From a virus, in IMG/VR virus record IMGVR_UViG_3300042006_000223, positions 1-22,425 of that record: 22,425 nucleotides of DNA. One strand, given 5' to 3'. This document shows, in pieces, positions 1 through 21,558 of this stretch (the stretch's first letter is position 1; every line of letters begins with the position of its first letter). The notes under the pieces were generated by a model that saw only the letters and a program-made list of their open reading frames with translations, was not told the DNA's origin and made no database searches. A program made the translations under genes and the position numbers.

Positions 1-21
1 ATGAAAAAACACGACTGACCC

Positions 22-50
22 AACGGCCTGGCTTTTTGCCGGGCCGTTTT
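22..50 (+). terminator. Rho-independent terminator of the upstream gene
   Basis: An 11-bp stem (22-32 with 38-48, one G-U pair) closes a TTTTT loop and is followed by a T run at 47-50. A short frame ending at TGA 16-18 just before it is probably the last codons of a gene that begins outside the window. Confidence 0.75.
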
Positions 51-92
51 CTGTCGACTTGGGTAAACTGGCCGCCCTTCGCGGAGGCTGAC

Positions 93-650
93 ATGCAAGA
101 CGACGATTTTTCTCTGTTCAAAAGTGCCATCCAGGGCGTCAAGCCGATCAAGCACGACCGCGCCGACACCGGCAAACCCAAGGCTGACCGCGCGCAGATC
201 GCCAAGCTGCGTCAGTCCGCCACCGTGCGAAGCGACACCACCATCATTGACGGCTTGTCCGACCAGTTCGTGATCGACGTCGGCCCGGAAGACGAGCTGA
301 TGTGGTCCCGCGACGGCGTGCAGGAAAGCCAGATGCGCAAGCTCAAGGTCGGGCAGATCCCGTTCGAAGGCAGTCTCGACCTGCACGGCATGAGCGTGGA
401 AAAGGCTCGGGAAACACTTTGGGCCTTTCTCGCCGAAGCGACCAAATTCGAAATCCGCTGCGTGCGCGTGACGCACGGCAAGGCTGTGCGCCTGGATGGC
501 AAGCGCCCGATGATCAAAAGCCACGTCAACACCTGGCTGCGCCAGCATGCGCAAGTGCTCGGTTTCTGCTCCTGCCAGGCCCGCCACGGCGGCGCCGGCG
601 CGGTTTATGTGATGCTGAAACGGACGATGATGGAAGGCCGCGACGAATAA
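93..650 (+). CDS. smr: Smr domain protein (MutS2 C-terminal-like, YdaL type)
   Basis: This 185-residue protein carries a C-terminal Smr domain (about residues 92-178). Visible signatures are LDLHG at 95-99, THGK at 127-130 and the RHGGAGAVYVMLKR block at 164-177. Stand-alone Smr proteins of this type are small nucleic-acid-binding proteins, some with nicking nuclease activity; the cellular role in Pseudomonas is not well defined. The N-terminal 85 residues are charged and probably flexible. I chose the ATG at 93 because GGAGG at 83-87 sits five bases upstream; a TTG at 36 would place the start inside the terminator hairpin. The folE fragment follows 77 bases downstream on the same strand. This gene looks like intact chromosomal backbone left of the inserted DNA. 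Confidence 0.9.
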   Translation: MQDDDFSLFKSAIQGVKPIKHDRADTGKPKADRAQIAKLRQSATVRSDTTIIDGLSDQFVIDVGPEDELMWSRDGVQESQMRKLKVGQIPFEGSLDLHGMSVEKARETLWAFLAEATKFEIRCVRVTHGKAVRLDGKRPMIKSHVNTWLRQHAQVLGFCSCQARHGGAGAVYVMLKRTMMEGRDE

Positions 651-727
651 AGCCGTCACACCGAACTTGCAGGGTTGTGTCCGCCACCGTACCCTTGCCC
701 TTTGCGAAAATCCCCACAGGTAGTTTC

Positions 728-775
728 ATGTCCCTGGAACAGAATTACACCGCGATGTTTAGGGGTTTTCAGTAG
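728..775 (+). pseudogene. folE: folE 5' fragment (GTP cyclohydrolase I), truncated
   Basis: The frame starts MSLEQNYTA, which is how Pseudomonas GTP cyclohydrolase I (first step of tetrahydrofolate synthesis) begins. After about nine codons the similarity stops (around 755-757) and the frame reaches TAG at 773-775, whereas the full enzyme has roughly 180 residues. The start codon and upstream spacing look intact, so the gene was cut by insertion or rearrangement at its 5' end. The remainder of folE is not in the window. The identification rests on only nine residues plus the adjacency to smr, so it is good but not certain. Another folE copy elsewhere would be needed if this is the only broken one. 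Confidence 0.65.
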
Positions 776-846
776 GTTCTCAGGGTCAATGAAATCAGGG
801 GGTTAGCACCGAGGAAAACCCAGAATTTCATTCTGATCCACAGTTA

Positions 847-867
847 TTGGTACAGAAATTGGTACGG
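847..867 (+). repeat. Tandem direct-repeat doublet A (TTGGTACnG)
   Basis: TTGGTACAG and TTGGTACGG occur 12 bp apart. The form resembles doublets found beside tyrosine-integrase attachment sites at tRNA genes. Two similar doublets lie at 1442 and 3261. The function is inferred from position and form only. Confidence 0.4.
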
Positions 868-890
868 GATTCATATCCCACATACATCGA

Positions 891-930
891 AAAAGCCCCG
901 CATCGTCTGAAACGATGCGGGGCTTTTTTC
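891..930 (+). terminator. Strong rho-independent terminator
   Basis: A long GC-rich perfect stem (AGCCCCGCATCGT with its complement, 4-base loop) is flanked by an A run on the left and six Ts on the right, so it could work in both directions. No intact gene precedes it on the plus strand; it may be the former terminator of a displaced gene. Confidence 0.75.
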
Positions 931-964
931 ATTGTTGAATGATGGCCTGACCGTAAATCGAATG

Positions 965-1150
965 GCGGCTATCGGCCGAGGCTGTGTAAAAACGTTTTCC
1001 AGCGTGACAGGTACTCAAAACCGGACTGGAAATCGCGCTTCTACGTAAAATCCACATCTGCTGACGTGCCGGTAAATTTCAGATTTAACGTAGACGCGCA
1101 CACTGCAATTTTGGCGAAACGTTTTTACACACTCTGGGCCGAAAGCGGCC
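965..1150. mobile_element. MITE-like inverted-repeat element or IS remnant
   Basis: A 15-bp sequence, TGTGTAAAAACGTTT at 983-997, recurs exactly in inverted form at 1117-1131, giving a 149-bp core. The symmetry continues outward imperfectly through GGCCGA-like sequence to about 966 and 1150. Inward, 1035-1052 pairs with 1082-1099 (two mismatches). There is no ORF. It could be a non-autonomous mobile element or the joined ends of an insertion sequence that lost its transposase. The family was not resolved. Confidence 0.6.
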
Positions 1151-1334
1151 GCAGGCTGGATCCGATGATGGATTGGATGCCGCAACCCGCCGGTTCCCCG
1201 CGCTGATTGGCTAAAGGCTCACAGCAGCGTCGCGCTGTAGCAATTTCTAAGCAGCAACAAGAAGTGCCCCAAGAAGCCGCCTGGATGAGACGCCGCGCCT
1301 GTAAGGGATGCGTACTTCGCCTCTTCACTTAGCT

Positions 1335-1362
1335 GGGAGTTCGAATCTCTCCTTCACCGCCA
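1335..1362 (+). tRNA. tRNA-Ser 3' end fragment (attachment-site scar)
   Basis: T-stem GGGAG/CTCTC encloses TTCGAAT, followed by acceptor strand CTTCACC, discriminator G and CCA. An ending in CACCGCCA is characteristic of serine tRNAs. No matching D-arm, anticodon arm or 5' acceptor strand (GGTGAAG) lies upstream, so this is a partial gene. tRNA 3' ends are common integrase targets, and phage phiCTX is known to use a serine tRNA. Serine identity is inferred from the 3' end only. Confidence 0.7.
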
Positions 1363-1376
1363 TATTCAGTAAACGC

Positions 1377-1411
1377 AAACCCCTGATTTTCTTAGAGAAA
1401 GTCGGGGGTTT
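1377..1411 (+). terminator. Terminator downstream of the tRNA fragment
   Basis: AAACCCCTGA pairs with TCGGGGGTTT (one G-U) around a further weak inner stem, followed by a T-rich stretch. It sits 15 bases after the tRNA CCA end, where a tRNA terminator is expected. Confidence 0.65.
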
Positions 1412-1441
1412 GTGGTTTTAGGTGTCCGAAAAATGGGCATA

Positions 1442-1461
1442 TGGGACAGATCTGGGACAGA
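1442..1461 (+). repeat. Tandem direct-repeat doublet B (TGGGACAGA)
   Basis: TGGGACAGA occurs twice with an 11-bp period, 80 bases after the tRNA 3' end. Position and form suit integrase arm-type sites of an island attached at that tRNA; this is an inference. Confidence 0.45.
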
Positions 1462-1567
1462 TGCGCCATTTCGGTGCGGAAATGAGCCTCCAGGATTGAG
1501 TGCCTGAGCTACCCTGTATTAGCTGCGCAAATCAGTCTTCCGAATCTTTGATCCAGGGACGATCAAC

Positions 1568-1786
1568 ATGCCAAGTAATGCAGATTCCAATATCACCACT
1601 GCCGATGCGCTGACACTGTTGTTGCACAACCAGCATGCGCTGGGCGCAGCGATAGAAGAGATTACACATTGGATATCGGGAGCTGGTGCAGATGATGTTG
1701 CCGATAACGCAATCGTGGCCTTGGCAACGCTGGACACTAACGCAGCAGCGATCACAGACGCGATCATGCGGCTACGGAAGGTTTAA
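1568..1786 (+). CDS. Small hypothetical protein, paralogue of the 5552 gene
   Basis: This 72-residue soluble, probably all-helical protein has no function I recognise. AGGGA lies about eight bases before the ATG. It aligns over nearly its whole length with the 73-residue product at 5552-5773: both run from A/SD-x-L, then NQ-x-x-L-x-AA/AL, DVADN or DVGDN, to a C-terminal K/R-rich helix. Similar small proteins occur in Pseudomonas accessory regions. It stands alone just inside the tRNA-associated scar, and no partner gene on the same strand is close. The shared pattern is the main evidence that both are real genes. Confidence 0.7.
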   Translation: MPSNADSNITTADALTLLLHNQHALGAAIEEITHWISGAGADDVADNAIVALATLDTNAAAITDAIMRLRKV

Positions 1787-1915
1787 GGGGAGATCTTTGC
1801 TGGCAGCACGCGGTCTAAACGCAAAGTTCAGTCCGCGAGCTCCAGTAGCTTAGACAGCGTTCACCGTCGCAATCTAGACATGGATTCGGCTGGCCAGCTC
1901 TCTCGGGCCGTAGAG

Positions 1916-2167
1916 TCACACTATGTGCTTACGTGACGACGTGAAATAAGCCGTTCGATCGCTGATCGCCGGGATGACCCCAGCGCACACTGCATCTACG
2001 ATGAGCTGTCGAGTAGCCTTCACGTCGAGCGTCTTGCCTACATTCTTTTGCATGAGTTGCCTGCTAATAAAATAGCGGCCACAGGCAGAACAGTCGATGA
2101 CCTGCCAATCCCCCACTTCATATTGAAGCTCTGCATTTTCCCAACAAATCCAGCACATACATCTCAT
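1916..2167 (-). CDS. Small zinc-ribbon-like hypothetical protein
   Basis: This 83-residue protein has a CWIC pair near its N-terminus and a CSACG pair about 20 residues later, the spacing of a small zinc ribbon. The pattern suggests a metal-binding module that contacts nucleic acid or protein, but no family was recognised. The ATG at 2167 is preceded by GGAGGGG at good spacing, which supports this start. It is convergent with the gene at 1568 and divergent from the pair starting at 2463. The C-terminal half is mixed helical sequence with no obvious domain. Confidence 0.7.
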   Translation of the reverse strand: MRCMCWICWENAELQYEVGDWQVIDCSACGRYFISRQLMQKNVGKTLDVKATRQLIVDAVCAGVIPAISDRTAYFTSSRKHIV

Positions 2168-2334
2168 GAATTCCCCTCCGTGACCAATGGATTGCGCCAG
2201 AAAAAGGCTGGTTCAATTCAGAGGGGCGACTGGAATGACCGTCGGTCGTATTAAGTGCGCAAATGCACGAAACACTAATTATGACCTATTGCGGCTATTA
2301 GCCACTAGTGGATGGAACGACGTTTATGTTCAAT

Positions 2335-2367
2335 AGGCCCCCACATTTGACCTAGGTATGGGGGCCT
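2335..2367 (+). terminator. Terminator-like hairpin
   Basis: AGGCCCCCA at 2335-2343 pairs perfectly with TGGGGGCCT at 2359-2367. The tail is only weakly T-rich (GTTTC). It lies in the gap between the divergent genes at 2167 and 2463, so it might act as a terminator or another RNA structure. Confidence 0.4.
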
Positions 2368-2462
2368 GTTTCATGCGCCGTGGAAACCAGACGTCCCAGG
2401 ACTGGTCTACCATCCTCCTACCGCTTGGCTTGCTGCAGCCACTCATTATTTAAAGGATGCCC

Positions 2463-2786
2463 ATGTGCTTTTATGCAGGTCTGGCCACCGTCACCGTGTT
2501 GGCCCGCTATCAAGGGCGGGAGCCGGCCGAGCTAACCAGTCTCGAATGCCCGGTGCGCCTCATTCATGTGGGCTTCGGTCGCGTCCGCGTTGAACTGCAG
2601 CATTACCTACAAGGCCCCAAGGAGGCCAACGCGCTACGGGTGATGTTGCCGCATGGAACAATGGTGCAGGGGCTCTTGATCGACGGGTCTAACCAACCCA
2701 CCGGCGGCTGGCTGCTGATCGACGTCGAGCAGTACGATTTGGCGCTTGAGCAACCGGGGACCCTGAATGGATGGCAATGGCAATGA
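2463..2786 (+). CDS. Hypothetical protein, first gene of a pair
   Basis: This 107-residue soluble protein was not recognised. Its composition is beta-rich with a central motif GFGRVRVELQHYLQG. The ATG at 2463 is chosen because AAAGGA at 2452-2457 is five bases upstream; the in-frame ATG at 2457 overlaps that ribosome site. Its stop TGA at 2784-2786 overlaps the start region of the next gene, so the two are probably translated together. It belongs to the accessory stretch between the tRNA scar and the Detocs operon. Codon use resembles the Pseudomonas backbone more than the AT-rich genes further right. Confidence 0.65.
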   Translation: MCFYAGLATVTVLARYQGREPAELTSLECPVRLIHVGFGRVRVELQHYLQGPKEANALRVMLPHGTMVQGLLIDGSNQPTGGWLLIDVEQYDLALEQPGTLNGWQWQ

Positions 2787-3028
2787 TTGACCACGACGAA
2801 TTTGCCGCACTTAACCTGCCGCGTTCTGTGCATGCGCAAGCGCTGAGGTTGCTCGCTGGCATCGTCCAGGCAAACACCCTGGCCGACACGCTGCACGCCG
2901 CCGACCGAGCCGAAGGTTTCACCCTGGGCATTGAAACGGTGAAAGCACTCAACCTCGGGGCCATCGAAGGGCTGTACCTGATATTCGACCGCGCTTTACA
3001 GGCGCGTCAGCGGGAACTGAATAGATGA
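2771..3028 (+). CDS. Hypothetical protein, second gene of a pair
   Basis: This product has up to 85 residues, is helical and soluble, and was not recognised. Three in-frame ATGs compete (2771, 2777, 2783). The last forms an ATGA overlap with the upstream stop, a common coupling arrangement, and would give 81 residues beginning MIDHDEF. No strong ribosome site separates the options. The protein is rich in Ala and Leu with alternating hydrophobic positions, which suggests a helical bundle. It is co-oriented and overlapping with the gene at 2463, so the two probably work together. Confidence 0.6.
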   Translation: MAMAMIDHDEFAALNLPRSVHAQALRLLAGIVQANTLADTLHAADRAEGFTLGIETVKALNLGAIEGLYLIFDRALQARQRELNR

Positions 3029-3260
3029 TCGGCGAAGGCATTCACGTGGAAGCTCTGAGTCTTTGACTCTCGCTTCGGCTTTACGCTTGCTCGTGATCAC
3101 TCAGTGTCAACTGCGCCATGAGTTGCTCTCGCACACTCCGATTGTGCTCGAGTATTTTGGCCGTTTAGCCCCTACCCTATGTGCTTATTGAGCCTCAGCG
3201 CATAACGCCATTACATGCACACACGCATGATTGGCATTGAATGGCATGGATTGGCGCACG

Positions 3261-3281
3261 GTTTGCCCCATGTTTGCCCCA
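3261..3281 (-). repeat. Tandem direct-repeat doublet C (TGGGGCAAAC)
   Basis: On the minus strand TGGGGCAAAC occurs twice with an 11-bp period. It has the form of doublets A and B but the opposite orientation, as expected if it marks the other side of an inserted segment. Role inferred. Confidence 0.4.
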
Positions 3282-3662
3282 CCCTCTTCTGCTCCAACTA
3301 CCCGAAACCAAACTGCTCAACCTTCAGCATTCGGCATGAACAGCCCCCAGAAAACATCAACAAGGGCACTGAAGCAGCAATCCCTCTCCTTCTTCACCGT
3401 CTCACTGGCGCAGTGCTAGCATCAACGACTCAAATATGATCATCATGCCCTATCCGTTATTCATCAGAATTGTGGATTGATGGCTTGGATTGAATCGGGG
3501 CGACATATTTTCGATGCAGACATGAATTGGATTGCCTACCTTGCAAATAATCAGGCTGGTCTGCTGAAAGCGGTAATTGCCTAGGAGCGATAAGTGGGTT
3601 GTCATGCATGAATCACTCTGGAAAGCCGGTTCTATGGAATCCAAATGAGCGGATAATCGGAT

Positions 3663-3770
3663 CGCCCGTCCTGCCCGACCTTGTCGTGCCTTTAGAGCTT
3701 CGCGGCCCTCGCGTCCGTCCAGACCTTCGTGACCATCTCGCCCGACGAGACCTGCTCGTCCGAGGAGCGG
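3663..3770 (-). pseudogene. Collagen-like (G-X-Y) coding relic
   Basis: One minus-strand frame reads GRAGLVGRDGHEGLDGREG, a clear glycine-every-third-residue pattern, then degenerates. The frame opens just after an in-frame stop and has no start codon with a ribosome site. Collagen-like repeats occur in phage fibre and surface proteins, so this may be a fragment of such a gene. Chance is not excluded in a GC-rich 9-bp periodic stretch. Confidence 0.3.
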
Positions 3771-3968
3771 ATGGTCCGACTCACTGTGTTCAGCTGCTTA
3801 CCCAATAAGGGATGTGATCGAGTACATGGCTTTCGGAGACAATCGTTAAGAATATCCAAAATTTTATAAAAGAGGATAAAAAATGAGAAAAAATGGAGAC
3901 AGATTTATTCATCGCCAAAATACTAGAAAATGATCTGCCCCTTCTATTGCTTATTTACATTCAACGCC

Positions 3969-5162
3969 CTATTCGTTACTAGACTCATTCAACTTCCTAC
4001 TCGCGCGCCCGTCTTCTGTTCCGCGGGCAAAAACATATCCTGCAATGGTACCAAGCAGCGTACCAAGAATCTCCTTACTCAACTTCTCACCCGTCCCCAG
4101 AATAATGATCGTAATAAGCATAAATGCCATACCAACGACTTCAACAAGTGACCGATTTACGATTAGCGCCTTAGCTACATCATCAGTGAAGACCTTAAGC
4201 CCCAAAAACAAAAACAACAATACACCAATCATCCCGTATACAGCGTAAACCAACCTAATATCAGTGCTTTCACGGCGCGCCTCGTCTTGCTTCTCCAACT
4301 TTTTAAACTCGATAATGAAATTAGACAATGCCTTTCGCTTATCCCTCAAGCTGTCTCGCTCCTGCGTGCGCAAAGCTTTCAATGCGGACTCAGCGGCTTT
4401 TTTACTCTCTATAACCGCTTCAAAATATTCATTTTGCAAGCTTAAATATACGGCCTCGTGCCCCTTCAAATATAGCTTTTTTAAAACTAACACTCTAGCA
4501 CCAAGCTCTTCCTCTCCTAATGACTCGCCACCAGCCAACCCAACCCAAGATTCGTCATCAATACTAAAACCTATTAACCCAAGACCATCATCACGAGTAC
4601 TTTTTTTCTTTCGATAACTGGATATTACTTCACTAGCTGCGGCACGTGCAGCCTTCATATAACTCGCTTCGGAAGAAACATCCCGATCAAACATAGCATC
4701 AAAACTTGAGCGATTCCAGAAATCTCCCGAAAAACCAATTGCACCTCTAAGCGATTGTTTTAAAAGAGCTAAAGCCTGCTGATATTTTTCGTCATCTAGC
4801 TTGCCTGGCTGAAGACTTTCAATTAACACCTGAGACCTTTTCCAACTACTTTCAGAGTTGGTGTCAGGAGGCGTTTTTTGAATTTGCGCCTCCTGAATCT
4901 TAACCAATAAATCATCAAGCACTTTAATATTTCTTTCGTGCATCCTTATATCCGACTTAGCTTGACGCAAATCATCTTCAACCAAAGGCGCAACAATGCT
5001 CTCTCCAGCTTCATCTGCATACATCAAAGGGCAATACACTAAACATAGGAAGACAAATAAACTTTTTAGACACTGAAACATTAACAGCTTTAGCTGCACA
5101 TTTGAAAACTCCGAAAACAACACAAAATTATCAAAAATGGACGACCCGTTTATTTTTAACAA
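3969..5162 (-). CDS. Unrecognised coiled-coil membrane protein
   Basis: This 397-residue protein was not recognised. It has a hydrophobic segment at about 31-48 (signal peptide or anchor), a long charged helical region with likely coiled coil at about 235-300, then two membrane segments (about 304-325 and 340-356) and a glycine-containing hydrophobic stretch (ILGTLLGTIAGYVF, 366-379). The start at 5162 has AAGGA 11 bases upstream; an ATG at 5081 would give a more classic signal peptide but lacks a ribosome site. The gene is markedly AT-rich, like the Detocs operon and unlike the phage genes, which suggests acquisition. It is transcribed in the same direction as Detocs but separated from it by a terminator and a plus-strand gene, so it is not obviously part of that operon. 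A membrane-located defence or stress role is possible but unproven. Confidence 0.8.
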   Translation of the reverse strand: MLKINGSSIFDNFVLFSEFSNVQLKLLMFQCLKSLFVFLCLVYCPLMYADEAGESIVAPLVEDDLRQAKSDIRMHERNIKVLDDLLVKIQEAQIQKTPPDTNSESSWKRSQVLIESLQPGKLDDEKYQQALALLKQSLRGAIGFSGDFWNRSSFDAMFDRDVSSEASYMKAARAAASEVISSYRKKKSTRDDGLGLIGFSIDDESWVGLAGGESLGEEELGARVLVLKKLYLKGHEAVYLSLQNEYFEAVIESKKAAESALKALRTQERDSLRDKRKALSNFIIEFKKLEKQDEARRESTDIRLVYAVYGMIGVLLFLFLGLKVFTDDVAKALIVNRSLVEVVGMAFMLITIIILGTGEKLSKEILGTLLGTIAGYVFARGTEDGRASRKLNESSNE

Positions 5163-5189
5163 GAGTTCTGTTCCTTAGATAGCTCACAA

Positions 5190-5510
5190 ATTAATGGCTA
5201 TATGCTATCAATAATTTCCCAATCTGTCTGTCCATAAAATTCAAAGTGCTCCCGAGCTTCACGGATGCGAATAAACCTCGTTTTCACCATTACGGATCAA
5301 CGCCCCCACTTCCCGGCCACGCCGATTCGTACCTCCAATGCCACCAATCTCCGCCACAGCTGCCCCACTCTCCCGCCGTTGCTCCATCGCGCCGATGACG
5401 GATTGGAGATAGCTCCTCGTCTGCACCCCGTCCAGCCTAGCTACACGCTCGAAAATGCCACGCTTTGTAGCAAAATATAAGCATGCAGCATTTACTACGC
5501 ACAAAGTCAC
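5190..5510 (-). pseudogene. Probable frameshifted ORF, unknown product
   Basis: A minus-strand frame from 5510 ends at 5259 with ...NGENEVYSHP. Immediately overlapping, another frame (5279-5190) reads IREAREHFEFYGQTDWEIID, which looks like natural C-terminal protein sequence. A one-base shift near 5262 would join them into one protein of about 105 residues. The family was not recognised and there is no good ribosome site. It may be the decayed end of a gene, or the two frames may be unrelated. Confidence 0.3.
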
Positions 5511-5551
5511 TGTCCGTACTATGCTCTTCCTTTTTCGAAGGCAACGATGCT

Positions 5552-5773
5552 ATGGCAGACGAATATTCGTTATCGGACGTACTTGAAAGGATGTACCAAA
5601 ATCAGCTCGGGCTGGAGGCGGCACTAATGGAGCTGACGCTTCATCTAGAAAAACAAGGCTGGGTCGACGTCGGTGACAACGTTCGCGGCTCATTGTGGGC
5701 GATTGGCGAGAACGCCGGGCATATCAAGCAAGGATTTGCAAAACTTAAATCAAATAATGGGAATCAAAAGTAG
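5552..5773 (+). CDS. Small hypothetical protein, paralogue of the 1568 gene
   Basis: This 73-residue helical protein, starting MADEYSLSDVLER, has no known function. It is homologous by eye to the 72-residue product at 1568: the NQ-x-x-LEAAL, ELTLHLEKQG and DVGDNVRG segments line up without gaps. GAAGG at 5536-5540 precedes the ATG at 5552 at a rather long spacing. A longer frame from 5483 exists, but its extra residues do not match the paralogue. The gene points toward the end of the Detocs operon and is separated from it by the operon terminator. Confidence 0.7.
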   Translation: MADEYSLSDVLERMYQNQLGLEAALMELTLHLEKQGWVDVGDNVRGSLWAIGENAGHIKQGFAKLKSNNGNQK

Positions 5774-5837
5774 TATATTTACTGTTGATAAAATCGCGTA
5801 AGCTCTCGAGGATTGATTTATACATCAAAGGCTAGAT

Positions 5838-5868
5838 AAAAAAAGGCCGTAGCTTTTAGCTCGCGGCC
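5838..5868 (-). terminator. Rho-independent terminator of the Detocs operon
   Basis: On the minus strand GGCCGCGAGCT pairs with AGCTACGGCC (one bulge) over a 3-base loop and is followed by seven Ts. It begins 13 bases after the dtcC stop codon, so it should end the three-gene transcript. Confidence 0.85.
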
Positions 5869-5880
5869 CTGTGAGTTCAA

Positions 5881-7125
5881 TTAGATCTCATCGTCAATTG
5901 GAACAAGCTTTGACAGCGCGAATTCGTATAAAAACTGTGAACTAGCATATGCTGCAAAATCATGAAAATCGTCTGATTTTTCAGAGTCACCAAAATCACA
6001 AACCGACTTTATGGAGAAACATAGAGGTTTTGGGTGAGATGCGTACTCAGCGGCCGCAAATACGGAGTAGCTTTCCATTTCAATGCCAATTAAATTTTTG
6101 TGCCGCTCTTTGGCCTGCTCCATAATTTCAGTAGATTGAATAACTGACCCACCGCTACCCATTGGCCCAATTATCACCTTGGGAGGATGATCAGGTCGCT
6201 TATGATCATAGTTTCGCCAGATTCGATCAATTATTGATTTATCATCACCAGCAGCTTTGATATCCGTCCTCAAAGAGTCATTCAATCGACGCTGATAAAG
6301 GGCAGGTAAAAATTTAGTGCGTGACTCGGCTTTAACATATGCCAGCTTACCACTGCCCAAGTCAAAACATGGGTCAGACACCAATATATCTCCCATCGCG
6401 GTCTTAGATTTAAGCCCCGCACATATCCCTGTAATGCCTAAATATTTAGGCCGAAAGCTATTTATCAACTTTGAAGCAAAAACTGCAGCGGATGGCATAC
6501 CCATCTCCGGAGACGCAACCGCTACAACTTTGAGGCTTTTTGTAGCACTCTTAAAAGTACCTTGATGATACCTAGCATCATCATGAGGAATTCTGAACTC
6601 TTCCCAATTCGCATCTAGATCGAGAATGCTCTTGAGTTCCTCTTCGAGCGCGACAAAAACACATAAGTCGATATGATAATTTGTACCATCCGCCTTATAT
6701 GGCGGTATATTTGATTCATTCAGATACTCGACTACCGCTTTTATATCACCCTGCCATGACAAATCAGAATACGAAAATGTTATAAAACGCCACAAAGGAA
6801 AGTTGAACTCTTCCACTGCAGCTTGAGCACCATCCTCATAAGCGCTCATTCCAATCACATAAGTAGGCTTTATAGCCCTATTATTATTTTTTATGAAATC
6901 CAAAAGCTCTAGACCTAGACCGGTCTCAACAGGCATATCGGCCCGCTTTGGTATATTTATATCTAAAATTATTAGCTCATATTTATTATTAGATAGGAGC
7001 TGTTTCGCCTCAATGAGATCACCCGCGATACTAACTCGAGAATACGCCATATCCACTGCCGACATGACTGCTTCCGTGACTAATCGCTTCTTCTCTAATT
7101 CGTCTTCAACGATTAAAACTCTCAT
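5881..7125 (-). CDS. dtcC: Detocs effector DtcC: receiver fused to nucleoside-phosphorylase/MTAN-like domain
   Basis: This 414-residue protein has a receiver domain (about 1-138; acidic pair E7/D8, phosphoacceptor D55, S94) joined to a phosphorylase-superfamily domain (about 150-407). The latter shows the MTAN-type landmarks VALEEEL with E163, ITGICAG at 231-237, GDILVSD at 245-251, EMES with E351, and CDFGD with D377; these match E. coli MTAN Glu12, Glu174 and Asp197 by pattern. In Detocs the phosphorylated effector cleaves the N-glycosidic bond of ATP, depleting ATP and aborting phage growth. The ATG at 7125 overlaps the dtcB end by about 20 nt and has AAGGAAG upstream. An alternative upstream start adds only six residues. 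The switch lysine expected near residue 117 is not seen. The ATP-cleaving activity is known for the family and inferred here. Confidence 0.88.
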   Translation of the reverse strand: MRVLIVEDELEKKRLVTEAVMSAVDMAYSRVSIAGDLIEAKQLLSNNKYELIILDINIPKRADMPVETGLGLELLDFIKNNNRAIKPTYVIGMSAYEDGAQAAVEEFNFPLWRFITFSYSDLSWQGDIKAVVEYLNESNIPPYKADGTNYHIDLCVFVALEEELKSILDLDANWEEFRIPHDDARYHQGTFKSATKSLKVVAVASPEMGMPSAAVFASKLINSFRPKYLGITGICAGLKSKTAMGDILVSDPCFDLGSGKLAYVKAESRTKFLPALYQRRLNDSLRTDIKAAGDDKSIIDRIWRNYDHKRPDHPPKVIIGPMGSGGSVIQSTEIMEQAKERHKNLIGIEMESYSVFAAAEYASHPKPLCFSIKSVCDFGDSEKSDDFHDFAAYASSQFLYEFALSKLVPIDDEI

Positions 7126-7588
7126 CCCTATCTTCCTTAACAAGTACAGTGTCTAGAATAATTTGTAAATCATTTTGCCAGTCGGTATTGGACTGAGCAA
7201 AATATACGCTCCCCAGGAAATGATCAGGAAACTCATCTTTGCAGATATTGGTGATTTCACTAAAAGACATTCGCTCATCCCCATCTCCAAAATCAGTTAG
7301 CTGGGTAACAACAATCACCTTTATCGGAAGTTCTTTTAGCTCCAGCTTTGTTAGCAGATCATACCCTCCCAATGCCCTTTGCCGCCCTTCCCTTTTATTA
7401 GGTTTTTTATCGAAGGTGGGTAATGCCATATCCAAAATCAGTAGATCTGGAGCACCTTGTTCGCATGCACGCAATCCGCTATTGTAACTTCCATACGTCT
7501 CAATATCTGCATCACCCACTGCATGCTGCAAATACTCTTGTAAACGACTTAATTTTAAAAGGTCATCCTCTATTATAAATATTTTCAC
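7106..7588 (-). CDS. dtcB: Detocs stand-alone receiver protein DtcB
   Basis: This 160-residue protein is a single receiver domain: E7/D8/D9 acidic pocket, phosphoacceptor D53 in LLILDMALP, and T95 in VIVVTQLTD. It has no output domain. In characterised Detocs the stand-alone receiver acts as a phosphate sink that absorbs accidental signalling from the kinase and prevents self-killing. Its GTG start at 7588 overlaps the dtcA stop in a GTGA arrangement, with GGAG five bases upstream, so it should be translated in proportion to the kinase. The end overlaps dtcC. The C-terminal stretch YFAQSNTDWQNDL lacks the usual Lys-Pro and resembles the equivalent stretch of DtcC. Confidence 0.85.
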   Translation of the reverse strand: MKIFIIEDDLLKLSRLQEYLQHAVGDADIETYGSYNSGLRACEQGAPDLLILDMALPTFDKKPNKREGRQRALGGYDLLTKLELKELPIKVIVVTQLTDFGDGDERMSFSEITNICKDEFPDHFLGSVYFAQSNTDWQNDLQIILDTVLVKEDRDESFNR

Positions 7589-10500
7589 ACCATCTCCAGG
7601 TTGCTAATCGTCAAAGTTGCGGAAAAAGACCTGCCCTCCAAAATCAATTCCAGAACATGATGCTTTTTCACTTCATACTCCATCATTCTCCATATCTTCG
7701 AAAGCCCGGACCCCCCCTCAGTACCAGCCCTGGTCAGGCCCGCGCCTGAATTATATCTTTCGCCCGCTAATCGAATACTTTCATCTAGCAATATTAGATC
7801 AACATTTTCCGCGATAGGGTTCCGAACACTTATTACCAGATCATCCCCGCTTACATCAAATGAAATGGAGATCCCTCGAATGTCATTTTCTATTCCGCTG
7901 TGGATAATAATATTCTGCAATAGGATAAACAACGTTTCGACAATACTGGTAAGAAGTCTCCCTTGTATTTTTTGAACAGGCATAGACGAAATAGAGGGAA
8001 AAACCCTATTACTAATATAGCAATTTTCAATTTGCTTAAGTGCAACAGCCAACACTAGTTCAAGCTCAATATCATCTTGACTGGAAAGCTGAGGTCTATT
8101 GAACCACCCGCAAATATCCTCAACCGTTTGTTGAACCTTGAGCCGCGCATCTATCACTTCATGTTCAATCGTTGAATATGTTTGCGGGCTAACATCACTT
8201 CGCAGCCCTTCCAGGATGGTATGGAATGCTTGTTGGATTTGCGCCTCAAGTATCTGCCGAATGTGCTGCTTAACATGCTCAATTGAATTATCAGTCAGTG
8301 TCCATGCTAAAGAAAGCAACTCGTTCATGAACGCGTCGTAGTCTGATATATTCATAAGCTTGTCCATCGACTTAGATCTAATTTCTTCAGTCAATATGAA
8401 CATAAAGAGACCCGAGGGATGCGCGTCTACCGAGTAGATTCGAAGATAATCCGTGAGATAACTATTTATTAATGTTTCTATTCTTTTAGTAAACCTAACC
8501 AAAACTTTTTCGACTTTTCCTACATCTTCTGCGACACTCTGGATTTTCTGTAGAATCACGTAAGGTAATTTATACTCTTCCTTAGACTTCGAACACATTA
8601 GGTGGCGCAATGCAGTCCGGATATGCCCCTCAAATACACCATGTCGAATTGCAGTAGAGATATGAGTATCAAGACCATATGCTGGATGAGCTGCAAATGC
8701 TTGGATAAAATTTTGCACCATTGTATTAAATAGTGACTCAGTTTCGGACGCAGGCAACTTGATATTTTTAAAGTCAAGGCTCTTGTCGTTTATAATCCGC
8801 TCTAACGCCTTTGCAAGTTTTTCCGCTTGAACATTCAAGCTTGGAGAGTCTCTTAGAACTACGTATCTATTGAAGGTTTCTTTAAAGGTTGGTTCCAAGT
8901 GATTTCTTAGACCATCCTCATCTATGTAAATTTTACCAGATTGAAAATGATGCCAGATCGTCGCCAACTTTTCGTTTCTAGTTATATCCTTGATTTCCGT
9001 AGAGTAAACACTCTTGTTTTTTGGATCGATTGTTGCCAACAACTGGCATATAGCTATTCTTTCCTCTTCAATTTCCTCTACAGACCCATATGCGCTGCTA
9101 TCATCTAGTATCCGGGAGATGCATACATACCTAAGAAAATAAACAAGTCTCTGTTTCTGGTCTTCAATTGTAGAAATTTTTAAACCGGATGGTCTATCGA
9201 GCTTAAGTTTCGCAATAATATTCTCATGTATATTTGATAATTTACGTTCCCATTTTGGGTGTACATGCCGAGATGTTAGATGTAACAATATCGCAGTAGC
9301 AACTGAAGATTTTAATTTTTTTATCTCCAGTGCAGCTATAGACAAATCTTTAAGAGGATAAAAAATAACTGCATTTGGATTTTCCAGGCAGTGATCCACT
9401 ACTATATTTACAGAACCTTCAATATCACCTTTCGCAAAGATGGACTGAAACAAATAAGCGGTTACCCTATCCGAATGACGCTTATCTCCCATCGCAAGAG
9501 TTTGGCGATAGTATTTTTCCGCACAATCTAATCTACTGTTCTTTAATGCCAGATGCCCTTTGTATATCAAGGCGCGATATTCAGGAAGTTTCAGCGTATC
9601 TATCCCCTTTACACCTTCGTCAAACGGCGCATCCAGAAACTCAAACAATCTAACTGGCTCAAGCGAGCTGATTTCGGGATTAATAGCTGGGTTAAAGGTT
9701 ATATAATCTTTGCTAATCGACTTTAGAATTGCCCAGCTCTTTGGATTGCAAAGGTTATTAGAAATTGCAGCTAACTTTTCCTTGTCAGTGGCGTCATCAG
9801 GCGAAACCACTTCATTTGTTCGATCCAGAAAGGCTGAAATACCATACCAAACAGAGGGGGTCGGAGCGAGTAAAGAAAGTTTCTCCAACCTTACTCTCGC
9901 CTTAACTTGATCGCCAGAACAAGTGATGATCGATGCCATCTGGCTGATAATTTCATCCTGCATACTAGACGGTGTTACTACAGCTTCGCTGTTCGTTATA
10001 TCGGAGACATACACGTATGCGTGAGCCTTGAGCTCGATAGCATCCAAAGCCTCAACGCTGATCTGCTCGTAATTTCCGAGTGAATAATTTCTATATGAGT
10101 TCAGCAAATCCTCATCAATTACTAATGCAGATATTCCAGTTAAGACCAATAGCCGTTGAATGTCTTTATCTGGAATCCAAGCAGAAAGCTTAAGAGCTTC
10201 CAGGATTTGTTCCTTCGGCACATTTCCTTGTATGAACGCAAGTTGACAGACGCTCACATATGCAAGCAGTCTATCAATCAGAGGCTGAGTCTGCTCATAA
10301 AATAGTATATTTTCAGGATTTACTATTTTCTCTAGCTTTGACGGCATTATATGATATATAAAATACTCAACGACATTATTCTGAATCTCCGAAACTTCTC
10401 TATCCAAATCATGAAAAGTAACGTTTTCTTCCGCTCGTATACTGGCGTGGTACGAAAGCAGTGCTGCTTGTAAACTAATAGATGGTGAGTTTATCACTTC

Positions 10501-11010
10501 CTCAACATAGTCTTTCTGTTCTTTTAAACCGTACATAGCTTGTTTTAAATAGATCTTATTCTTGATGAGCCAAATCGAGAAACCAAAATCTTTTTGGATC
10601 TGTTCGAGCGTGCGCTCAGCCAGACCATAATCACCAGCAAATAATGCTTTATCATATGCTCCTTTCTGGTCTAAAAAAGGGGCGAGTTTATCTTTGAAAA
10701 TTGATAATACTGCAGCATTCCAAATCAGTTCCTCTCCAGTAGATCCCGTCACCAAACCTGGAAGACCTTTTTTTATCGAAGATAAACTTGTTGGAAATTG
10801 AGTAGGTGCGACTAGCCCAAGGTAAGTTGAATTATTACCGAGATCTTGCAATATTTTGTAGTAGCATCGACTATCGGTTTTAAGCTTCGCCATGTTCAAT
10901 CCGCGGCGCAATGACGTCGGTTGTTTCCTTCCTGACTTGCTAGATTTATGTATTTCCCTAACAAATTCCTTGTAAGAAGTTATCAATTGCACTTTGCTTT
11001 TTGAGTTCAT
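7585..11010 (-). CDS. dtcA: Detocs sensor histidine-kinase-like protein DtcA
   Basis: This 1141-residue cytoplasmic protein has no membrane segment. The first about 880 residues are helical, with TPR-like segments (for example about 480-555, with the pattern ALKNSRLDCAEKYYRQTL). The C-terminus is a GHKL-type ATPase domain: N-box LLQN with N1033, an RNP segment with N1064, and the G2-type GGSGL at 1099-1103. A candidate phosphoacceptor is H930 in QQAFHTILEGLR, in the helical stretch before the ATPase domain. In Detocs this protein senses infection and passes phosphate to DtcB and DtcC. The size, the repeats and the order dtcA-dtcB-dtcC fit that family. The ATG at 11010 has only a weak site (AGGA about 12 bases upstream). 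The gene is visibly AT-rich compared with the phage block. Confidence 0.85.
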   Translation of the reverse strand: MNSKSKVQLITSYKEFVREIHKSSKSGRKQPTSLRRGLNMAKLKTDSRCYYKILQDLGNNSTYLGLVAPTQFPTSLSSIKKGLPGLVTGSTGEELIWNAAVLSIFKDKLAPFLDQKGAYDKALFAGDYGLAERTLEQIQKDFGFSIWLIKNKIYLKQAMYGLKEQKDYVEEVINSPSISLQAALLSYHASIRAEENVTFHDLDREVSEIQNNVVEYFIYHIMPSKLEKIVNPENILFYEQTQPLIDRLLAYVSVCQLAFIQGNVPKEQILEALKLSAWIPDKDIQRLLVLTGISALVIDEDLLNSYRNYSLGNYEQISVEALDAIELKAHAYVYVSDITNSEAVVTPSSMQDEIISQMASIITCSGDQVKARVRLEKLSLLAPTPSVWYGISAFLDRTNEVVSPDDATDKEKLAAISNNLCNPKSWAILKSISKDYITFNPAINPEISSLEPVRLFEFLDAPFDEGVKGIDTLKLPEYRALIYKGHLALKNSRLDCAEKYYRQTLAMGDKRHSDRVTAYLFQSIFAKGDIEGSVNIVVDHCLENPNAVIFYPLKDLSIAALEIKKLKSSVATAILLHLTSRHVHPKWERKLSNIHENIIAKLKLDRPSGLKISTIEDQKQRLVYFLRYVCISRILDDSSAYGSVEEIEEERIAICQLLATIDPKNKSVYSTEIKDITRNEKLATIWHHFQSGKIYIDEDGLRNHLEPTFKETFNRYVVLRDSPSLNVQAEKLAKALERIINDKSLDFKNIKLPASETESLFNTMVQNFIQAFAAHPAYGLDTHISTAIRHGVFEGHIRTALRHLMCSKSKEEYKLPYVILQKIQSVAEDVGKVEKVLVRFTKRIETLINSYLTDYLRIYSVDAHPSGLFMFILTEEIRSKSMDKLMNISDYDAFMNELLSLAWTLTDNSIEHVKQHIRQILEAQIQQAFHTILEGLRSDVSPQTYSTIEHEVIDARLKVQQTVEDICGWFNRPQLSSQDDIELELVLAVALKQIENCYISNRVFPSISSMPVQKIQGRLLTSIVETLFILLQNIIIHSGIENDIRGISISFDVSGDDLVISVRNPIAENVDLILLDESIRLAGERYNSGAGLTRAGTEGGSGLSKIWRMMEYEVKKHHVLELILEGRSFSATLTISNLEMV

Positions 11011-11521
11011 GCTCTAGCCAAATCCTATTTGCGAAAACCTAAGTAATGTCCGTATGAATCTGAACCTTTAAATGAGCCTAATCTCAAAATCACCTTTCTT
11101 GTGCTGGAATGAGATCGTCATAGTGGCCGTTCGCTATGCTAACTCAGTACCAATGATTAGGCACTGCTCTTTGCTTAAGGAGTGGCTTACTCAACCCGTG
11201 AAGTCAAAGCTGAGGCTCGTGATGGTTGATAACCGGTCGCCTCGACCGGTTTCGAGCGCAATCAAAGCTTGTGAGTGATATTACCAATCAGCCTTATATC
11301 ACCAGCCATCCTTCCACAGCTGATCCGAGCGGATTTTAAAGCTCTGGCTCAGAGAACTCTCGACGCCTGTCCCAATATGGGCTGCTTGGTACGCTGCGGC
11401 CCGGAGCATTCCCCTACCCGCTCGTCAGTTGGTTTCACCCAGTACCACCCTCACGTGCGCAGTTTGATGAGATGCGACGATTCCTTGCTGTCTGGGGTGA
11501 TTGAATGAAAGCCAATATTCT
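11011..11521. other. Intergenic region between the dam-like gene and dtcA
   Basis: About 510 bp without a credible gene. It must hold the Detocs promoter on the minus strand, but no convincing -35/-10 pair was identified. The hairpin at 11231-11251 is the only clear structure. Composition changes from AT-rich to GC-rich across it, so the Detocs/phage junction probably lies here. Confidence 0.5.
11231..11251. repeat. Perfect 9-bp inverted repeat
   Basis: AACCGGTCG and CGACCGGTT are separated by CCT. The stem is stable but has no T run on either side, so terminator function is doubtful. It could be an operator or an RNA structure. Confidence 0.45.
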
Positions 11522-12316
11522 CTAAAACAGTCCGTAGAGCAATCCCGGTTCCCAATTCATGATGACGAGTTCGCCGCTGACCTCAGCTTTGCCTTGCCGT
11601 TGATTGGTATTGGAGTAACGGATGTCTAGGGTTTCAAAATGAAAGCCCTCGAATACGCGGCGGATATCTGGATGGTCGTTGATGCTGACCATCACCTTGC
11701 CTTTGCAGCGGCGCATGAAGTCGGCCATCCGTTCGTAGTTCTCGAACGGAAAGTCCACGCCATAGCCGGCCGTCTGCCAGTAAGGCGGGTCCATGTAGTG
11801 GAAGGTATGGGCGCGGTCGTAACGTTCAGCGCATTCAAGCCATGGGAGGTTTTCGACGTAGGTACCGGACAAGCGCTGCCAGGCGGCCGAGAGATTCTCC
11901 TCGATCCGCAGCAGGTTGATGGCCGGTGCGGTGGTCGCCATGCCGAACGTCTGCCCGGAGACCTTACCCGCAAAGGCATGGTGCTGCAGGTAGAAGAATC
12001 GGGCGGCGCGCTGGATGTCGGTGAGGGTTTCGGGGCGGGTCATTTTCTGCCATTCGAACACCTGCCGCGAGCTAAGCGCCCATTTGAATTGGCGCACAAA
12101 CTCTTCGAGGTGGTTCTGCACGACGCGATAAAGCGTGACCAGGTCGCCGTTGATGTCGTTGAGTACTTCGACCGGCGATGGCTGGGGCTTCATGAAGTAG
12201 AGCGCGGCGCCGCCGGCAAAGACTTCAACGTAGCATTCGTGTGGCGGAAAAAGCGGAATGAGGCGGTCGGCCAGGCGGCGTTTGCCGCCCATCCAAGGGA
12301 TGATGGGTGTAGACAT
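11522..12316 (-). CDS. dam: Phage-type DNA adenine methylase (Dam/MT-A70-unrelated D12 class)
   Basis: This 264-residue protein is an N6-adenine methyltransferase of the D12 class, which methylates adenine in a short DNA site using S-adenosylmethionine. Visible motifs are the SAM-binding WMGGKRR (8-14) and FAGG (33-36), and the catalytic DPPY at 176-179. Phages use such enzymes to protect their DNA or alter regulation; the site recognised here cannot be told. The ATG at 12316 is preferred over an upstream in-frame TTG at 12325, because AAAGG lies 11 bases before the ATG but only two before the TTG. It is the last gene of the phage block, about 150 bases after Rz. A LexA-like box overlaps its likely promoter. 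Confidence 0.88.
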   Translation of the reverse strand: MSTPIIPWMGGKRRLADRLIPLFPPHECYVEVFAGGAALYFMKPQPSPVEVLNDINGDLVTLYRVVQNHLEEFVRQFKWALSSRQVFEWQKMTRPETLTDIQRAARFFYLQHHAFAGKVSGQTFGMATTAPAINLLRIEENLSAAWQRLSGTYVENLPWLECAERYDRAHTFHYMDPPYWQTAGYGVDFPFENYERMADFMRRCKGKVMVSINDHPDIRRVFEGFHFETLDIRYSNTNQRQGKAEVSGELVIMNWEPGLLYGLF

Positions 12317-12333
12317 AAAAAGCAAGACCTTTA

Positions 12334-12349
12334 CTGTATGGATAAACAG
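12334..12349 (-). promoter_or_regulatory. Putative LexA (SOS) box upstream of the methylase
   Basis: CTGTTTATCCATACAG fits the CTG-N10-CAG LexA consensus with an AT-rich centre. It ends 18 bases before the methylase start codon. A weak -10 (TACAGT) would overlap it, so LexA binding could repress the gene until DNA damage. Confidence 0.6.
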
Positions 12350-12466
12350 GTGCTAGGCTCGCCGCGCTTTGTGCACGGAGCAAGAGCCTTGGCTGGACTT
12401 GCAGGGACAATCTGCAGGGACGGCGGTCGATCTGGATGTTGACGCATCCGGACCGGCCGCTCTTTT

Positions 12467-13009
12467 TCACTTCGGTGTTGAGACTTCTTTGGCGTATGCC
12501 TGACAGGCCGCGAGGGCAATCAGCCCCCGGTCGCCGTCATCGGTGACGCCGATAATTCGTTGAGCATGCGCTGGGTCAAGTTCGGCTCTTGTGGGGCCAT
12601 GAACCAAGCCGCCGGTGGCGGTGGTGGCTGACAAAGATCCGTTTCGGGCGCCGGTGGTGGCGTCGAGTAGGACTGACAAGCGCAGATCAGCAGTGGCAAG
12701 GCGGTCGCGCAGGCGACCTTGATCACGTTGGACATCGCTCAAGGCTCGATAATGGGTTTGTTCGCTGGTGGCCAGGCGCTGCTCGAGCGCAAGGCGTTTG
12801 TCCTGTTCGGCACGCTGCTGCGCAACCGTGGCCAGGGCCAACTGGTTAAAGGCTTCGGTGTGGAGTCGGGCCTGCTCTGCGAGCTGTTTGCCGTAGCGCC
12901 AATCCTGTACTTGCCAGGTAATGGACGCAGAACTACCGACTAAAACGACCAGCAACACTCCTTTTGCCAGTAGCCGATACGGCGCCGGGATCAGTTCGCC
13001 GAGACGCAT
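12467..13009 (-). CDS. Rz-like inner-membrane spanin
   Basis: This 180-residue protein has one N-terminal membrane segment (about 14-32) and then a long, charged, Gln/Ala/Arg-rich coiled coil (about 45-110), the layout of the i-spanin that bridges the periplasm and fuses the membranes in the final step of lysis. The ATG at 13009 is chosen because GAGGG lies just upstream and the membrane segment then sits near the N-terminus; a longer frame from 13033 has no such site. It overlaps the end of the endolysin gene by 19 nt. The Rz1 partner is encoded entirely within it in another frame. Confidence 0.8.
   Translation of the reverse strand: MRLGELIPAPYRLLAKGVLLVVLVGSSASITWQVQDWRYGKQLAEQARLHTEAFNQLALATVAQQRAEQDKRLALEQRLATSEQTHYRALSDVQRDQGRLRDRLATADLRLSVLLDATTGARNGSLSATTATGGLVHGPTRAELDPAHAQRIIGVTDDGDRGLIALAACQAYAKEVSTPK
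12520..12735 (-). CDS. Rz1-like outer-membrane lipoprotein spanin, nested in Rz
   Basis: This 71-residue product starts MSNVIKVACATALPLLICAC: a short signal sequence and a lipobox-like LICAC with C20 as the likely lipidated cysteine. The mature part is rich in proline (PPPAPE, PPPPP), as in Rz1 proteins. It lies wholly inside the Rz gene in another frame, the classic overlapping Rz/Rz1 arrangement. The lipoprotein sits in the outer membrane and binds the C-terminal end of Rz. Because the frame is embedded, gene finders often miss it. Confidence 0.75.
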   Translation of the reverse strand: MSNVIKVACATALPLLICACQSYSTPPPAPETDLCQPPPPPAAWFMAPQEPNLTQRMLNELSASPMTATGG

Positions 13010-13554
13010 AACACCGCCCTCGCCCGCCCCCACAACTCCAGCCGATCCTGCAGGCCATTGAGGCCGCCGTTGATCCTGCGGGTGATCGTGTTGAATTCAT
13101 TTTGATCAGCCAGCGCGTTCAGCCCATTCACTGACCAGAACCATGCAGCCGATTCAGCGGCCCACTGCGGCAGCTCCAGCAATTCAGGCGTGCGCAGCAA
13201 TCGCTCGTCGCCGAACAGCGCCAAGCTACAGCGCAGGTAGTTGTCGTGACCAGTGACCTGGATCAGGCCGCGACCACGATAGCGCTGGCCATCACCATCT
13301 GCTGCCGGGGTATTGCCCAATTTCGCAGCCAGGTTGCCGGTGTCGTATTTGCTCAGGTACTGGTCGCCGCCCAGTTCCCGGACGTATTGCAACTGACCCG
13401 ACTCGTGACCGACTTGCGCCAGAAACGCGGCTTGCCGTTTCGGCGTGTTGATCTGTCGATGGGCCATTGCTGCGTTGAGGGCGGATACAAAAACGCCCGC
13501 TTGGCGGCGGGCGTTGGGCATGATGCTTTGCAGCTGCTGTTCAGTGATGGACAT
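12991..13554 (-). CDS. Phage endolysin, glycoside hydrolase family 19
   Basis: This 187-residue enzyme cleaves the glycan strands of peptidoglycan during lysis. The GH19 signature is clear: AAFLAQVGHESG with proposed catalytic E51, a second acid around E60, and the RGRGLIQVTGHDNY motif at 93-106. No signal peptide is seen, so it would need a holin or pore to reach the wall; no holin gene was found in this window. The ATG at 13554 has GGAG five bases upstream; the longer frame from 13569 is less likely. A small hairpin lies between gene D and this gene, and Rz overlaps its 3' end. Confidence 0.9.
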   Translation of the reverse strand: MSITEQQLQSIMPNARRQAGVFVSALNAAMAHRQINTPKRQAAFLAQVGHESGQLQYVRELGGDQYLSKYDTGNLAAKLGNTPAADGDGQRYRGRGLIQVTGHDNYLRCSLALFGDERLLRTPELLELPQWAAESAAWFWSVNGLNALADQNEFNTITRRINGGLNGLQDRLELWGRARAVLCVSAN

Positions 13555-13569
13555 ACAAACTCCAGACAT

Positions 13570-13591
13570 AAAAAAGCCGCACTCAGGCGGC
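13570..13591 (-). terminator. Hairpin with T run between D and endolysin
   Basis: On the minus strand GCCGC pairs with GCGGC over a 6-base loop and is followed by six Ts. It may reduce read-through from the tail genes into the lysis genes. Confidence 0.5.
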
Positions 13592-13603
13592 GATGGGATG
13601 CGG

Positions 13604-14653: not shown

Positions 14654-14667
14654 AGATTTTTTCCAAT

Positions 14668-14689
14668 AAAAAACCCGCACAAGGCGGGT
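14668..14689 (-). terminator. Hairpin with T run between X and D
   Basis: On the minus strand ACCCGC pairs with GCGGGT over a 5-base loop and is followed by a T run. It is an intra-operon attenuator candidate. Confidence 0.5.
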
Positions 14690-14739
14690 CAGAAATACAA
14701 GGTATCGTTACGCGGCGCCGGCAAAGGCATCGCCCAGGG

Positions 14740-14946
14740 TCAATCCCACAAGCTGACGCCTTCACTGGTCGGACTCGGCAGATCCGGCAGGACGATGATC
14801 ACGCCCAATCGGAACGGTTGAGGCTCATCCGCTAGCCCCTGATTGGCATCGAGTACGGCCTCGACGCTGCCATTCAGATGGCCGTAAACGTTGTTGCAAA
14901 TGACATCGAGCATGTCGCCATCAGACGTCCTGCATGTCGTCGCCAT
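14740..14946 (-). CDS. X: P2 gpX-like tail protein
   Basis: This 68-residue protein matches the P2 gpX family, a small LysM-like tail protein. The sequence runs from TSDGDMLDVICNNVYG through VEAVLDANQGLAD to GVIIVLPDLP, as in other Pseudomonas gpX proteins. The start at 14946 is chosen because GGAG lies about ten bases upstream and the product then has the family length; the longer frame from 14985 adds 13 residues. It overlaps the end of the U gene by 26 nt, so the two are coupled. Confidence 0.85.
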   Translation of the reverse strand: MATTCRTSDGDMLDVICNNVYGHLNGSVEAVLDANQGLADEPQPFRLGVIIVLPDLPSPTSEGVSLWD

Positions 14947-15766: not shown

Positions 15767-15775
15767 GAAACCTCC

Positions 15776-18568: not shown

Positions 18569-18606
18569 GTCATGGCCCTCATGTGCCCAGCACTACCGGT
18601 GGCGGC

Positions 18607-19318: not shown

Positions 19319-19331
19319 CTGGATCTATTCC

Positions 19332-19835: not shown

Positions 19836-19848
19836 TTGCTACGCCCCC

Positions 19849-21015: not shown

Positions 21016-21033
21016 AAAGGTCAGTCTCCAGAA

Positions 21034-21062
21034 ACGAAAAAGCCCCGCATAAGCGAGGCTGT
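21034..21062 (-). terminator. Hairpin with T run before the sheath gene
   Basis: On the minus strand GCCTCGC pairs with GCGGGGC (one G-U) over a short loop and is followed by five Ts. It would limit read-through from the fibre genes. Confidence 0.55.
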
Positions 21063-21093
21063 GAGGGTGTTCGTGTTACGCGATACGGAAACG

Positions 21094-21120
21094 AAAACGC
21101 CCCGTCAGTGCGGGGCGTTT
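21094..21120. terminator. Bidirectional-type hairpin after the fibre assembly gene
   Basis: AACGCCCCG pairs with CGGGGCGTT over a 6-base loop, with a T run on the minus-strand side (TTTT). It overlaps the last codons of the fibre assembly gene. Confidence 0.6.
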
Positions 21121-21556: not shown

Positions 21557-21558
21557 TT

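Follow-up and report, generated by a model that had tools for sequence, protein, structure and literature searches.

One end of a Pseudomonas prophage, in the IMG/VR virus record IMGVR_UViG_3300042006_000223 (22,425 bp, hereafter the window), apparently bears the traces of several earlier insertions, yet retains no integrase. This end carries three tandem doublets, each consisting of two short repeats about one helical turn apart and each lying at a distance of 80-115 bp from its own recombination core. The cores are copies of three chromosomal targets: the start of folE, the 3′ end of tRNA-Ser(GGA) and the start of mutS (Table 1; the mutS limits are approximate). Comparison with relatives makes it very probable that the doublets represent arm-type (P′ arm) sites of three phage-type tyrosine integrases, situated in attL or in stranded attachment (att) modules, and supports an earlier, sequence-only reading of the window, which took them for arm sites of different tyrosine integrases and thus for traces of separate integration events. 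Protein binding to the doublets and the order of events are what we infer. The folE site is proposed to be the present chromosome boundary of the prophage.

Three tandem doublets beyond chance expectation

The doublets are real and exceed what chance would produce: a sequence check and a repeat search both list them where the sequence-only reading had placed them. Within positions 640-3700, four near-exact doublets with a period of 10-12 are present (the three doublets and TGATTGGCATTGAATGGCAT at 3228), compared with a mean of 0.21 in first-order Markov control sequences, and none of 500 such controls equalled this count. Across the whole window, the pattern TGGnnC...TGGnnC, with the same nn and a period of 10-13, occurs four times (mean of 0.29 in 300 controls), the fourth occurrence (4065, minus strand) lying inside the open reading frame (ORF) 3969-5162, where we assign it no meaning. 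Near-exact doublets of all kinds number 11 in the window versus 1.5 in 200 controls, so that some of the others are coding or simple repeats. The form TGGnnCA, proposed as common to all three, fails for Doublet 1, whose second copy reads TGGTACG. Similarly, the description of one doublet as standing right after a tRNA 3′ end is correct as to the tRNA fragment, a 26-nt piece of tRNA-Ser, but this piece ends 80 nt before Doublet 2. ARAGORN found no tRNA in the window and a search of the window record with PF00589 gave no match, in agreement with the earlier statement that no integrase gene remains; a search of Rfam for structured RNA yielded no match above the gathering score, and comparison of window positions 1-6000 with phage records yielded no match.

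Each doublet type is associated with its own integrase and target

The window diverges from intact folE of other genomes after position 756 (folE is intact in G001 and G003), and the same displaced folE start, followed by a TTGGTAC doublet, is found in genomes G034 and G251. The G251 element (~22.9 kb) carries the folE core CTGGAACAGAATTACACCGA and a TTGGTAC doublet at each end; the 3′ end of its integrase gene, a 258-aa frame in which Pfam matches the catalytic domain only, overlaps the right doublet, its final codons being TTGGTACAAAATTGGTAC, and folE with a new GTG start follows directly. We surveyed 80 related loci of the folE-type integrase, 77 of which reach the 3′ end of the gene and were used for the doublet count. 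An exact TGGTACn5TGGTAC is located at this end in 63 of the 77, with two more such doublets elsewhere in 336 kb, and folE comes next after the integrase in 15 of the 80 loci; most contigs are truncated there. Other genes also follow TGGTAC doublets in some relatives: integrases with this doublet in loci L292-L300 precede a gene whose start, by our reading, resembles that of an ABC-F ATPase, a possible further insertion target.

The exact sequence TGGGACAGATnTGGGACAGA of the tRNA-Ser type is present at 26 loci in GTDB contigs (12 in Pseudomonas, 6 in Enterobacterales and 8 elsewhere). In nine of the Pseudomonas loci the sequence follows an intact tRNA-Ser(GGA) with its terminator, and in two, L001 and L008, it follows a tRNA-Ser fragment, as in the window; in Enterobacterales, three are found behind tRNA-Thr and one behind tRNA-Arg. 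Among the best 30 matches behind tRNA-Ser(GGA), picked by similarity to a query that itself contains the doublet, inspection by eye identified two TGGGA-like copies in about 24, one in 4 and none in 2. Loci L092, L098 and L160 possess a second TGGGAC doublet 92-104 nt before a core copy, in L092 and L098 at the far end of the element, which gives arms on either side.

For the mutS type, TGGGGCAAA doublets were matched in 26 of 249 Pseudomonas genomes, with no hit for the reversed-pattern control among the matches listed. Some stand at displaced mutS starts, others follow tRNA-Pro(GGG) or precede integrase genes; displaced starts were recognised by reading, and the other element end was confirmed by Pfam (MutS) in G001. 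Both G001 and G155 contain a TGGGGC doublet at each element end together with an integrase and mutS. In viral contigs, where 32 of 45 loci contain the mutS core, all 32 right ends carry GCCCCn5-7GCCCC within 110 nt before it; a search of viral contigs for the exact Doublet 3 gave no match. Doublet 3 of the window lies, on the minus strand, about 115 bp from the stretch reading LSHTPIV. The element is not inserted in mutS, its boundary being at folE; only a mutS-type core and arm remain (3124-3281). Adjoining Doublet 3, at 3228-3253, is a further repeat, TTGGCATTGAATGGCATGGATTGGC, conserved in mutS-type ends and perhaps a site of an excision factor. An architecture of the same kind is seen at a further tRNA, with TGGGGCAAAAAGTGGGGCAAAA doublets about 100 bp behind tRNA-Pro(GGG) in L102, L105, L120, L123, L127, L128 and L131.

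Intact folE-type, tRNA-Ser and mutS integrases of relatives combine the Pfam domains Arm-DNA-bind_2 and Phage_integrase, and the core is in each case shared with the displaced target: folE (window, G034, G251), mutS (G001 and others) or tRNA-Ser(GGA) (L153 and others). An arm repeat of the same kind at both ends, along with the cognate integrase, is found in relatives (G251, G001, G155, G009, which equals L091/L092, and L098); the window does not extend to the right end of its element. Thus, in relatives the motif is linked to core, integrase and target, which supports assignment of the doublets as putative arm sites. The search for such doublets beside integrase genes at tRNA sites, suggested by the sequence-only reading, bore out the integrase link, each kind having its own target, but placed only one of the three by a tRNA; randomly scattered doublets devoid of any link to tRNA or integrase genes were not what the searches returned.

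Stranded tRNA-Ser modules lack an integrase

Other Pseudomonas elements match the window from 1334-1337 onward, at the tRNA core, and the left flanks vary between copies, which points to site-specific exchange at the core; the left flank back to 1162 is common to the window, G050 and L162. In L153, the same module (97% identity over window positions 1337-3046) adjoins an intact tRNA-Ser(GGA) and encodes a 394-aa integrase, the ORF of which ends 210 bp past the point matching window position 3046. A position of the lost integrase at ~2412, derived from comparison with G009, was dropped, given that the gene in the 97%-identical L153 lies beyond that point.

To the core scan we submitted 58 of 70 viral loci, the other 12 beginning at or near the ORF that accompanies the module. 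The core is present in 26 of the 58, 15 with an intact tRNA and 11 without. An integrase is encoded within 4 kb in all 15 viral loci with an intact tRNA and in none of eight stranded cores, each with at least 3.4 kb of DNA (Fisher 2e-6, a value that ignores kinship). The eight include the added stranded cores of L183 and L193 and exclude five stranded viral copies followed by less than 2.7 kb of DNA; the second core of L098 (an isolate, without integrase) was not counted, and isolate loci, chosen for having an integrase, were kept out of the 15. Furthermore, in at least 8 of the 249 Pseudomonas genomes (G023, G046, G050, G052, G179, G189, G233 and G260), a core-plus-arm match was seen by eye more than 380 kb from the tRNA-Ser(GGA) gene on the same contig.

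Probable att remnants for four targets

The sequence-only reading had mentioned neither the folE and mutS cores nor two further att remnants of the dusA type, which carry a doublet of their own, made up of TAGCA and TAAGCA. With five att remnants found, we refer to the first 5.5 kb as a stack of sites for four targets. Genome G050 has segments 1162-3281 and 11526-15802 arranged as in the window, but at dusA, with the integrase and DusA at the far end. An insertion at dusA with an adjacent integrase is thus found in G050, whereas the window has remnants only. The G050 dusA integrase gives no match to Arm-DNA-bind_2, and the dusA-type repeat differs (TAGCA). Genome G034, in turn, contains window positions 1-958 and the late genes (11301-22425), also in order, at folE. 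Accordingly, the window combines two architectures known from isolates, with the joint at the 959-1151 repeat. In G023 and G244 this repeat occurs in several copies, and G251 has it as well. The idea that the sites were switched in a simple linear order was dropped: G050 has the order dusA, tRNA-Ser, mutS, but in G001 mutS lies outside tRNA-Ser.

A possible mechanism and its relation to known systems

The general model for these integrases assigns arm-site binding to the N-terminal domain and core binding to the C-terminal domain (PMC2951348). In the window, the N-terminal arm domain of each integrase would occupy both repeats of a doublet, which are spaced by about one helical turn, and the catalytic domain would bind the core 80-115 bp away, DNA bending bridging arm and core; the spacing of the doublets and their distance from the cores fit this model. 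The dusA, tRNA-Ser(GGA) and mutS sites would have been stranded inside the prophage with loss of their integrase genes, and may be traces of earlier integrations or of swapped integration modules. We also consider, tentatively and with less than even confidence, that TGGnnC doublets about one helical turn apart form an arm-site grammar common to Arm-DNA-bind_2 integrases, with the middle bases (TA, GA or GG) following the integrase type and the target free to change independently; TGGTAC integrases were found at two targets, folE and the ABC-F-ATPase-like gene start. If so, stranded doublets could reveal which integration specificities a prophage lineage had in the past, doublet and core together telling which integrase type once acted even with the gene gone. 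The folE, dusA, tRNA-Ser(GGA) and mutS half-sites in a single prophage end suggest free exchange of integration modules.

Sites at mutS, dusA, tRNA-Ser and mutS/cinA and att sites inside prophages are already published, whereas folE as an insertion target and these doublets as arm sites were not found in the search listings of the openly licensed literature. As with attL and attR of the lambda/KplE1 kind (PMC2951348), elements of the kinds compared here have a core with repeated arm sites nearby at either end, and their integrase has an N-terminal arm domain, but the window unites three motif types (TGGTAC, TGGGAC, TGGGGC) in one prophage end devoid of an integrase. Elements inserted in the HTPMMQQ motif of mutS, for which the strains tested for excision include Pseudomonas putida F1, have a displaced mutS start at one end and a new start at the other (PMC5296598); in contrast, the mutS core of the window lies inside a folE prophage rather than at mutS. 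Islands and integrases of the dusA type insert in the 5′ end of dusA, the old start becoming the outer boundary (PMC4482086), a pattern that G050 fits, whereas the two dusA-type remnants of the window are located inside the prophage without an integrase. Several host-derived att sequences within one prophage are also known from prophage-in-prophage attB sites of Escherichia coli (PMC8112680), but the window sites retain P′ arms, and no insertion of a second prophage was seen. Finally, prophages 01, 02 and 06 of P. fluorescens Pf-5 occupy the mutS/cinA region and tRNA-Ser and have defective integrases; arm repeats and stacked sites go without mention in the available portion of that report (PMC2647930).

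Alternative explanations

Several observations weigh against assignment of the doublets as arm sites or limit its reach. Two of the three doublets lie by protein-gene starts rather than a tRNA, and the viral loci are not mutually independent. An integrase match was obtained at only five of the nine tRNA-Ser(GGA) loci with TGGGACAGATnTGGGACAGA, one of them a fragment (three of the four loci without a match had less than 2.2 kb of downstream DNA). At 14 of the 77 folE-type loci no exact doublet is present: five differ from it by one base and some have another sequence. Moreover, the doublet in the folE integrase is coding (WIGTKLVQ), and its conservation could be partly due to this; non-coding copies at the other element end (window, L029, L060, L061) argue against coding constraint as the sole cause. 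An integrase of another kind in L020, without a Pfam arm domain, also adjoins TGGGACAGA, and hence the doublet form is not bound to one domain family. We had expected a P arm in the left flanks of stranded tRNA-Ser cores, an expectation that was dropped: one was present in 3 of the 18 copies listed (L092, L098 and L160) and absent from the window, so that the stranded sites are not intact attP sites. The main doubt concerns the stack itself, part of which might have arisen during assembly, by a misjoin of positions 1-958 (the folE end) to the sequence from 1152 onward via the 959-1151 repeat. The window comes from IMG/VR, some genomes have several copies of the repeat and, among the records found, only the window spans 958 to 1162, but each half has a natural counterpart in isolates (G034 at folE, G050 at dusA), and we deem a misjoin unlikely.

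Somewhat more plausible than a misjoin, if still on the unlikely side, is that the doublets are arm sites but the inner dusA, tRNA-Ser and mutS sites serve as living docking sites (attB within a prophage) for other elements. Prophages of E. coli carry several host-derived attB close together that are used by other phages (PMC8112680), and in Pseudomonas prophages the left flanks of the cores are many and different, with the junction exactly at the core; yet no element was seen at an inner site of the window or G050, the two inspected. The lack of an integrase in all eight stranded tRNA-Ser modules fits relics and docking sites alike. That the doublets are instead operators of another protein, such as a repressor or an excision factor, or serve integrase autoregulation, appears improbable. 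Tandem repeats suit many regulators and attL often overlaps integrase promoters under integrase control (PMC2951348), but the same kind of motif recurs at both ends even without an evident phage promoter (the 3′ end of the folE integrase, the mutS leader) and changes with the integrase type. As for chance, short two-copy repeats are common, as the 11 in the window illustrate, but the Markov and reversed-pattern controls described above, as well as conservation of the doublets at the same place in many elements, contradict it and leave it virtually no probability.

Feature coordinates and cargo genes

Table 1 Features of the prophage end, in window coordinates
Feature	Position	Strand	Remarks
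folE start (MSLEQNYTA...), broken off after 29 nt	728-757	+	Left half-site of folE-inserted element; core CTGGAACAGAATTACACC 734-751
Doublet 1, TTGGTACnG x2, period 12	847-855 TTGGTACAG / 859-867 TTGGTACGG	+	Putative arm-type site, folE-type integrase
Perfect 17-bp hairpin, terminator-like	890-928	+	Similar hairpins in L029, L060, L061
Dispersed repeat, ~190 bp, 34-nt inverted arms	959-1151		Resembles a miniature inverted-repeat transposable element; possible misjoin point
dusA-type half-site	1162-1253	+	Core CCGATGATGGATTGG 1162-1176; arm-like doublet TAGCAATTTCTAAGCA 1238-1253; colinear with left end of dusA-inserted G050 prophage
tRNA-Ser(GGA) 3′ end fragment (core)	1337-1362	+	Homology of relatives begins here; left flanks many and different
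tRNA-Ser terminator hairpin	1371-1417	+	Conserved behind intact tRNA
Doublet 2, TGGGACAGA x2, period 11	1442-1450 / 1453-1461	+	Putative arm-type site, tRNA-Ser(GGA) integrase
72-aa ORF accompanying tRNA-Ser att module	1568-1786	+	phrog_12397, function unknown; 70 viral loci
Break point	3047-3057		L153 homology (97%) stops at 3046; G003 and L154 match to 3057
mutS-start-like core	3124-3146	+	Reads LSHTPIV in mutS frame; CACACTCCGATTGTG 3132-3146
Doublet 3, TGGGGCAAAC x2, period 11	3281-3272 / 3270-3261	-	Putative arm-type site, mutS-type integrase
Second dusA-type att remnant	5338-5483	+	MPPISATAAPLSRRCSIAPMTDW start-like stretch 5338-5406; doublet TAGCAAAATATAAGCA 5468-5483

Downstream of the stack, three cargo genes on the minus strand (5881-11010) match components A, B and C of the PADLOC candidate defence system PDC-M60 (E values of 1e-90, 2e-33 and 3e-106). 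Their products are a protein of 1141 aa, one that resembles a response regulator, and a fusion of a response regulator with a nucleoside phosphorylase domain.

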